Part shown: positions 495 to 12,819 of the stretch, piece after piece
Position numbering within the stretch: the first letter of the stretch is position 1
Layout: each line of letters opens with the position of its first letter
From: a virus
IMG/VR virus record: IMGVR_UViG_3300033143_002990
Location: 1-46,840 of that record
Length of the DNA stretch: 46,840 nucleotides
Strand: one strand, 5' to 3'
Notes under the pieces: generated by a model
Databases searched by the model: none
What the model saw: only the letters and a program-made list of their open reading frames with translations
What the model was told of the DNA's origin: nothing
Made by a program: the position numbers and the translations under genes

Positions 495-639
495 GTAAAA
501 TGTTCGTCTAGCCTAACACTATACATTATGCTGGGTCGGTAGATATTGGTTGGCTGTTGACTTTTTGTGGTGGCGCCTATATCATATATCTTATTAGTAT
601 GCTTTTTACATATCTAGGGTCGGGCAGGGCCTATTTTGT

Positions 640-711
640 GGGCGTGAGCAGGGCAGACCGGGCGGCGAAAGTCGTGTGGTAACGGGGGTTCGATTCCCCC
701 CACGTCCACCA
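640..711 (+). ncRNA. 72-nt tRNA-like RNA with alanine identity elements and no canonical anticodon arm
   Basis: Bases 640-646 (GGGCGTG) pair with 701-707 (CACGTCC) as a 7-bp acceptor stem, followed by discriminator A708 and an encoded CCA (709-711). A perfect T-arm lies at 684-700: GGGGG, loop TTCGATT, CCCCC. Acceptor pair 3 is G642:T705, the G3:U70 wobble that with A73 marks tRNA-Ala and tmRNA for alanyl-tRNA synthetase. The 37 bases between the acceptor strand and T-arm cannot form normal D and anticodon arms. Instead 657-666 and 671-680 form a long helix with one G:G mismatch and a GAAA tetraloop (667-670). The layout resembles the tRNA-like domain of tmRNA without its mRNA-like region. 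A T-run (713-720) follows. Expression is not shown. Confidence 0.6.
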
Positions 712-775
712 CTTTTTTTTAGCTGCCCGTCTATATAGCATACCTCGCCACAATCAGGCCGAATAAACGCATAAT

Positions 776-2211: not shown

Positions 2212-2400
2212 ATGGACGAGAAAAAAATTGTTGTAGCCTTTACGATTGGCGAAAAGGTATCTATCGGAAACGGTATTGCCGCAAAGGTTGAGGGGGTTTT
2301 CATTGACGAACACGGGGCGACGTATCGTTGCGCTTGGTTCGACAACAACCAACAACGCCAGTCGGAGTATATTCCTCTTGACGAGATTAAGGTCTGTTAG
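2212..2400 (+). CDS. Small beta-barrel-like protein, unknown function
   Basis: 62 residues, starting at ATG after a GGTAGGA site, with a CCGCA/TGCGG hairpin just upstream (2180-2193). The pattern (FTIGEKVSIGNG, AAKVEGVFID, ATYRCAWFDNN, SEYIPLDEIKV) alternates strands in the manner of small SH3/KOW-like phage proteins that describe a fluid property such as length or modification. No catalytic residues are seen and no function is assigned. Confidence 0.65.
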   Translation: MDEKKIVVAFTIGEKVSIGNGIAAKVEGVFIDEHGATYRCAWFDNNQQRQSEYIPLDEIKVC

Positions 2401-2405
2401 CCGAA

Positions 2406-2443
2406 ACGCCCTCCGGGGCGTCTGACCGGGAGTTGTCCCCCGG
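2406..2443 (+). promoter_or_regulatory. Two hairpins in the leader of the 2478 gene
   Basis: ACGCCC (2406-2411) pairs with GGGCGT (2416-2421), then CCGGG (2426-2430) pairs with CCCGG (2439-2443). They lie between the stop of the previous gene and the AAGGAG site (2466-2471). Hairpins in this position recur in the early region. Confidence 0.5.
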
Positions 2444-2477
2444 CATTGATGAGGCAGACAAAACGAAGGAGAAGCAG

Positions 2478-9502: not shown

Positions 9503-9897
9503 AACATAAATCAGTCAAACTTAGAACGATAGGTCGCAGGTCGCGGCACAAGCAGTTGATGGCCGTTGCCAACCATATGATGAACGGAGACAACGCTGTC
9601 TATCTCCACAGCGTTTACGGTTACAACAACGCAGAGCAGTGGACTATCTGCGGCTGCCTGCGTGATATTTATTTAACATGGCGCAAGGGACACGGCTTTT
9701 ATTTAAGCAGGGCCATTGGAGGATATGACGCAATCGACGTTCAGCTGAATATGCTCTTCTTCCCAGCTGCGCGCGCTCGCGATATTCAGCTGGTAGACCG
9801 CCACGACGACATTAGCGTTTATATAGACGAGACCGTCTTGGTTACCGCCGCACAAAGGGTATATAACCGTATTGTGGAGCTTGATAAAAAACAGTAA
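9499..9897 (+). CDS. Unknown 132-residue protein
   Basis: It starts in an ATGA overlap at 9499; a GTG nine bases earlier is less likely. The N-terminus is basic (KHKSVKLRTIGRRSRHK). The last codons (LDKKQ, stop) are read through the A-rich upstream block of promoter P2, so coding and promoter sequence overlap here. No family is recognised. Confidence 0.6.
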   Translation: MKHKSVKLRTIGRRSRHKQLMAVANHMMNGDNAVYLHSVYGYNNAEQWTICGCLRDIYLTWRKGHGFYLSRAIGGYDAIDVQLNMLFFPAARARDIQLVDRHDDISVYIDETVLVTAAQRVYNRIVELDKKQ

Positions 9898-9943
9898 AAA
9901 ACTATAATTTATTACTTGCGCCGGTCGAGAGAGGTTGTAGTAT
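9886..9943 (+). promoter_or_regulatory. Early promoter P2 (same architecture as P1)
   Basis: A-rich block with AACAGTAAAAA (9886-9902), -35 TTGCGC (9916-9921), 16-bp spacer and -10 TAGTAT (9938-9943). The -35 box is weaker than in P1. It drives the operon beginning at 9989. Confidence 0.65.
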
Positions 9944-12496: not shown

Positions 12497-12783
12497 AGGT
12501 TGAATATATAGCAGACTTTCGGGCTACACACGTGAATTTTCATCACAGAATTACATCAGAGATTAGCGCAGAAGATTTAATTCGCCAATGTAACGATTAT
12601 TTTGTTTCTCAAATGCTCCCGCCATTCGCACGATGGGTTCTCCTCCATAAACAAGACGGGACTCTTTGCTATACGTGTCCGCCGACTGGGGAGGCAAGGG
12701 TTACAATAAGAAGATATGTTAGACAGACGCTACTCGAGGAACTGACGCCGCTTAGGCCAATAAAAAACAGTAAAAAAACATAG
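12493..12783 (+). CDS. Unknown 96-residue protein
   Basis: It begins in an ATGA overlap. Contains SAEDLIRQCNDYFVSQMLPP and CYTCPPTGEARVTIRRYVR. The C-terminal codons (PIKNSKKT) are read from the A-rich block of promoter P3, so this gene end is constrained by the promoter, as with the gene before P2. No family is recognised. Confidence 0.55.
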   Translation: MKVEYIADFRATHVNFHHRITSEISAEDLIRQCNDYFVSQMLPPFARWVLLHKQDGTLCYTCPPTGEARVTIRRYVRQTLLEELTPLRPIKNSKKT

Positions 12784-12819
12784 AAAACAACTTGCAATAT
12801 TTTAGGCCCACGCTAATAT
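12762..12819 (+). promoter_or_regulatory. Early promoter P3 (same architecture as P1)
   Basis: A-rich block with AACAGTAAAAA and ACATAGAAAAC (12762-12788) nearly identical to P1, -35 TTGCAA (12792-12797), 16-bp spacer and -10 TAATAT (12814-12819). It drives the small gene at 12862 and possibly the replication operon. Confidence 0.7.

Follow-up and report, generated by a model that had tools for sequence, protein, structure and literature searches.

A 72-nt tmRNA-like RNA without a tag message in a contractile-tailed phage, and its relatives in other phages

In tmRNA, the third acceptor pair is a completely conserved G-U that serves as the signal for alanyl-tRNA synthetase (AlaRS), SmpB binds the tRNA-like domain (TLD), where it stands in for the anticodon half that tmRNA lacks, and the D-arm region touches SmpB (PMC3985003). 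The closest described system is that of mycobacteriophage DS6A, whose tmRNA is called "TLD only" in passages of two published sources; according to the same passages, a DS6A-like molecule is a strong inhibitor of tmRNA regardless of its ability to accept alanine, perhaps by titrating SmpB (PMC4131195; PMC11915505). Tag-less mitochondrial tmRNAs co-occur with SmpB and are presumed to be still useful (PMC11915505). Genes for tmRNA are favoured integration sites (PMC4131195).

The window analysed here is a whole virus record of 46,840 bases. The phage is contractile-tailed, and its proteins include a tail sheath, a portal, a large terminase, a primase and a topoisomerase. The element at positions 640-711 resembles the DS6A type in being a phage-encoded RNA with little beyond the tRNA-like domain of tmRNA, one short helix and no tag. 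TLD-only tmRNA is already known as a kind, and the view that the class was unprecedented does not hold, because the DS6A molecule came before. The DS6A tmRNA reportedly goes back to Mao et al. 2009 and is said to be filed in the tmRNA database under the class "Standard, no CDS". Compared by description rather than by alignment, the window element differs from DS6A in its degenerate D-loop motif, its GGGCGTG acceptor and its GAAA-capped helix, and it belongs to a different phage, a contractile-tailed one. With full tmRNA (Rfam family RF00023) the element shares a G3:U70 acceptor, A73, CCA, the T-arm and a helix that replaces the anticodon arm, but mRNA-like domain, resume codon, tag and pseudoknots are all missing from it, and it measures 72 nt as against about 300-400. 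Tag-less mitochondrial tmRNAs and those of Mallomonadaceae plastids (the latter about 65 bp) likewise have no tag reading frame; unlike the window element they are organellar, the mitochondrial ones are mostly permuted, and they are thought to rescue rather than to inhibit. An engineered TLD with SmpB (PDB 2CZJ), in which the 5' 25 and 3' 34 residues are joined by UUCG (PMC3985003), is also closed by a tetraloop, although it is a laboratory construct, whereas the window carries a natural version with a GAAA cap and an altered D-loop. In the open-access literature we found no report of a broad occurrence of TLD-only tmRNAs in phages or of the divergent D-loop variant, either of which may be published outside it.

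Anatomy of the element and its relationship to tmRNA

The element and its parts are as follows.

640-711 (+): TLD-only tmRNA-like RNA, the whole element, 72 nt including the encoded CCA
640-646 (+): acceptor stem, 5' strand GGGCGTG, with G3 at 642; the 7-mer plus A also occurs in a full-length phage tmRNA (L005) and in the GGGCGTG subtype
647-656 (+): D-loop equivalent AGCAGGGCAG, with GG 4 nt past the acceptor, as in relatives
657-680 (+): central helix (H2 equivalent) from folding, nine pairs and one G.G mismatch, GAAA tetraloop at 667-670
684-700 (+): T-arm GGGGG-TTCGATT-CCCCC, perfect 5 bp, stem 684-688/696-700, loop 689-695
701-711 (+): acceptor stem, 3' strand CACGTCC with U70 at 705, then A73 at 708 and CCA at 709-711
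682-711 (+): 30 nt identical to the 3' end of the L005 phage tmRNA (L005 827-856), from sequence comparison

Direct reading gave the layout GGGCGTG-AGCAGGGCAG-ACCGGGCGGC-GAAA-GTCGTGTGGT-AAC-GGGGG-TTCGATT-CCCCC-CACGTCC-ACCA, in which AAC precedes the T-arm and 640-646 pairs with 701-707 over 7 bp, G642:U705 being the G3:U70 pair. The central helix, 657-666/671-680, was obtained both by free folding and by folding with the two stems imposed, and it stands in the place of the anticodon arm and the mRNA-like domain; the z score of the fold was -2.2 for the whole segment and -2.1 for the middle region alone. Free folding lengthened the acceptor by two further pairs (638-639 with 708-709), and the mature 5' end is therefore only presumed to lie at 640. 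The tmRNA motif GGnnTCGAC is degenerate: where tmRNA has the SmpB-contacting D-loop motif GGNUUCGAC, positions 651-658 read GGGCAGAC, with GG and GAC retained and the middle altered. The tRNA-Ala features D-arm, anticodon arm and T8 were absent from 640-711 (position 8 is A), as was an mRNA-like domain with a tag reading frame. ARAGORN called neither a tRNA nor a tmRNA at 640-711, which fits the missing anticodon arm; at permissive settings it returned hundreds of spurious tRNAs. Sequence reading and folding thus bore out the original prediction of a 7-bp acceptor with G3:U70, A73 and CCA, a T-arm that pairs perfectly and a helix capped by GAAA, and its statement that D and anticodon arms are lacking agrees with both the folding and the silence of ARAGORN. 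In a pattern scan of both strands of the window, 640-711 was the sole site of tRNA-like size with a perfect acceptor and T-arm, while 300 first-order shuffles of the window contained 0.03 such sites each on average and none with G3:U70 and A73.

Search with a tmRNA model, which had been proposed as a check, returned RF00023 as the best Rfam match for 638-713, aligned from the first to the last model position (1-374) with the message domain skipped, at 32.2 bits (E 3.6e-12), a score below the curated gathering cut-off of 47. Families of the same clan scored below tmRNA, lower-scoring same-clan matches being omitted from the output. L005, to which the last 30 nt are identical, is a full-length phage tmRNA with the same acceptor, GGGCGTG/CACGTCC. 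Besides the acceptor with G3:U70 and A73, the window element shares with tmRNA the 5-bp T-arm with a loop of the form TTCGANT and the 3' end. Taken together, the comparison with Rfam, the 30 identical nt along with the shared acceptor, and the lack of tRNA arms give good support to 640-711 being best read as a tmRNA cut to its tRNA-like domain, without the tag message. Among the possibilities raised by the original prediction, a reduced tmRNA is therefore the one that gained ground, from these matches and from the many TLD-only relatives.

TLD-only relatives in phages

At least 80 distinct TLD-only elements, 50-109 nt long and with few exceptions viral, came out of pattern scans. By acceptor they form the subtypes GGGGGTG and GGGCGTG, of which the second includes the window element. 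Simple patterns thus returned at least 80 distinct tag-less elements, as compared with nine unpermuted tag-less genes among the 97,179 of the 2025 tmRNA database. Scanning viral sequences for a short tmRNA-type 3' end recovered TLD-only elements whose D-loop carries the complete tmRNA motif, and a more specific pattern, in which position 3 and the 3' acceptor strand were free but acceptor positions 4-7 were set along with the D-loop motif and a portion of the T-arm, matched at least 120 viral contigs. Among the matches listed, about 70 elements had seven acceptor pairs (six in one) and five T-stem pairs, and 41 were non-redundant. In the alignment of these 41 GGGGGTG-type sequences the central helix (columns 23-29/50-56) varied on both sides at every pair, with 91% of cells pairing, and the covariation score of the whole structure was 0.57, against 0.12 in shuffles and a maximum of about 0.10 in slid controls. 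The 3:70 pair was G:U in all 41, and the acceptor pairing percentage is a lower bound because MAFFT partly misaligned the acceptor columns. These alignment data indicate that the structure of GGGGGTG-type elements is under selection. Most members of this type that measure 80-84 nt also carry, in the central helix, an inner motif like AAAGCCGCAYGCGGA (for example L055 2847-2929 and L070 5905-5987), which is a conserved internal loop.

The GGGCGTG subtype, recovered by a scan with the window's own acceptor in the pattern, comprised 24 distinct members of 50-109 nt. Their D-loops mostly start like AAATGG, and TCGAC was missing in 23 of the 24; the window element fits this branch, with GG 4 nt after the acceptor and AAC before the T-arm. 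Extreme 50-nt forms, made up of acceptor, short loop and T-arm with no central helix, were seen at L301 9217-9266 and in L296.

G3:U70 was present over varied stems in 75 of 82 filtered elements, a set that includes a few chance hits and to which some patterns favouring G3:U70 contributed. Three related elements had A3:U70 instead. In two other phage contigs (L004 and L006) lies a short element, identical in both, that has the T-arm and the 3' acceptor strand of the window element together with A3:U70. The reading of G3:U70 as an alanine signal is strengthened, since the pair is invariant across different acceptor stems. Named isolates also carry elements, with stems outside the patterns: the Streptomyces phages LuckySocke (GGGTCTG) and Shaeky (GGGGTAG) and the Microbacterium phage Gack (GGGCCTG). 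All three elements have G3:U70 and lie among tRNA genes, at sites that carry no annotated feature, and they open the function of such RNAs to direct test.

In 30 element-bearing records, which may be fragments, the RF00023 matches were only 17-106 nt long, so that no full tmRNA is seen beside the element in any of them. Only two of the at least 80 collected elements were bacterial, in a Mycobacterium bin and in Cellulomonas massiliensis, and when the same kind of pattern was run on 84,980 species genomes of bacteria and archaea, these two were the only clear matches, so that the class is strongly linked to phages. The Cellulomonas massiliensis element, at 779-861 of a chromosome contig (L256), is probably a prophage or a remnant of one. 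Caulobacter phage CcrBL9, Xanthomonas phage XacN1 and Pseudomonas phage SM1 were rejected as TLD-only candidates, because what matched there was the 3' part of a permuted or longer tmRNA call. ARAGORN usually misses the collected elements, and Rfam finds only a part of them.

A custom model of the other TLD-only elements (R1), built without the window element, scored 37.7 bits (E 3e-7) at 640-711, and the next site in the window reached 12.4 bits. Clear members scored 45-87 and the best tRNA call, a tRNA-Ala, 35.8, so R1 alone is not decisive for the window element.

Candidate function and alternative readings

The published DS6A precedent makes a decoy reading plausible, and by this analogy we consider it reasonably probable that 640-711 encodes a TLD-only tmRNA that competes with host tmRNA and lowers trans-translation in infection, competition with host tmRNA being its most likely activity. 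The steps that we infer, from transcription through processing, charging and SmpB binding to inhibition, would run as follows: RNase P would probably trim the 5' end, AlaRS would probably charge the RNA with alanine via G3:U70 and A73, EF-Tu and perhaps also SmpB would bind the charged molecule, and this would rival host tmRNA for SmpB and stalled ribosomes, with reduced trans-translation as the outcome. Because the SmpB-contact D-loop motif is degenerate in the window, as in 23 of the 24 GGGCGTG-type members, SmpB binding by the window RNA may be weak, and titration of SmpB is for the same reason less certain here than for the GGGGGTG type. Tentatively, TLD-only tmRNAs could form a widespread phage class that disarms host ribosome rescue, with the GGGCGTG type as a distinct branch that does without the SmpB-contact D-loop motif and acts via alanine charging and EF-Tu or the ribosome. 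If inhibitory like the DS6A-like molecule, they would place in the hands of many phages an RNA weapon against a near-universal bacterial rescue system.

A structure and a G3:U70 pair held by selection across phages would also suit a minimal rescue helper, in which the phage TLD and host SmpB free ribosomes stalled on broken mRNA with no tag added, as has likewise been proposed for the tag-less mitochondrial tmRNAs that co-occur with SmpB (PMC11915505). This is unlikely, however, given that the phage precedent is reported as an inhibitor and that the phage record has no SmpB gene. The retention of acceptor, T-arm and G3:U70 in a GGGCGTG subtype that is mostly without the SmpB-contact D-loop motif fits a role free of SmpB, and the alanine-charged RNA might then have another client, as an EF-Tu decoy, as an aminoacyl donor for a tRNA-dependent enzyme or as a packaging signal; nevertheless, the window proteins that were scanned included no recognisable tRNA-dependent enzyme linked to the element, and we give such a client little credence. 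The origin or packaging element that had been suggested at the outset found no support.

It is more doubtful still that the locus is an attP site or a leftover, that is, the 3' end of a host tmRNA that a temperate ancestor picked up and that has no function as RNA. Integration is known to favour tmRNA genes (PMC4131195), the window's 3' end shares its 30-nt identity with a tmRNA 3' end, and in Mycobacterium phage Shandong1 (L373) a tmRNA 3' fragment at 1501-1543, likely an attP in ssrA, lies about 90 nt upstream of the tyrosine integrase gene. In the window's record, on the other hand, tyrosine integrase (PF00589) gave no match, in a search whose controls matched in all 14 genomes, and there is none next to the element. 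An attP needs the 3' part only, yet here the acceptor also has its 5' strand, which is paired and correctly positioned, as in many relatives, and the central helix covaries in the other (GGGGGTG) subtype; the missing integrase and the intact 5' half thus disfavour this reading. Least probable is that a tRNA-Ala gene has shrunk or degenerated and lost its anticodon arm, for despite the alanine-type acceptor with G3:U70 and A73 and the tRNA calls that score up to 35.8 bits on R1, tmRNA is the best Rfam family with same-clan families lower, the 3' identity is to a tmRNA, position 8 is A rather than T and the D-arm is missing.

Genomic setting of the element

The TLD-only tmRNA-like element is flanked by the following signals.

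557-585 (+): promoter-like site TTGACT-17-TATCAT, candidate promoter of the element; three such sites in the region against 1.2 expected
713-720 (+): run of eight T directly 3' of the element, a possible terminator, from sequence reading
806-833: promoter-like sequence 3' of the element

The region 1-880 at the upstream end holds no convincing gene, and a promoter-like site follows the element at 806-833. The promoter-like site at 557-585 and the T-run would point, weakly, to a separate transcript of 640-711. A T-run terminator was rejected as a trait of the family, since it occurred in 11 of 80 elements, compared with 13.4% by chance.

A protein search found no relatives of the ORF at 1094-1621. 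Relatives of the tail sheath were confined to one contig, a fragment 99.9% identical, in which the 640-711 element was not found, and the nine contigs related by topoisomerase had only that gene in common and were without the element.

The 28 nt at 773-800, just before the promoter-like sequence at 806-833, recur exactly at 12759-12786, and 18 nt of them at 9884-9901, all on the + strand, which suggests an upstream element shared by early promoters. A 29-nt direct repeat, CCATGAACATTTTGAACATTTATTACAAA, occupies 217-245 and 394-422 in the non-coding left end of the window. A type II hammerhead ribozyme at 2399-2463 (+), with a score of 50.1 bits that exceeds Rfam's cut-off, lies just upstream of a gene that starts near 2479 and has a nucleoside deoxyribosyltransferase-like domain.
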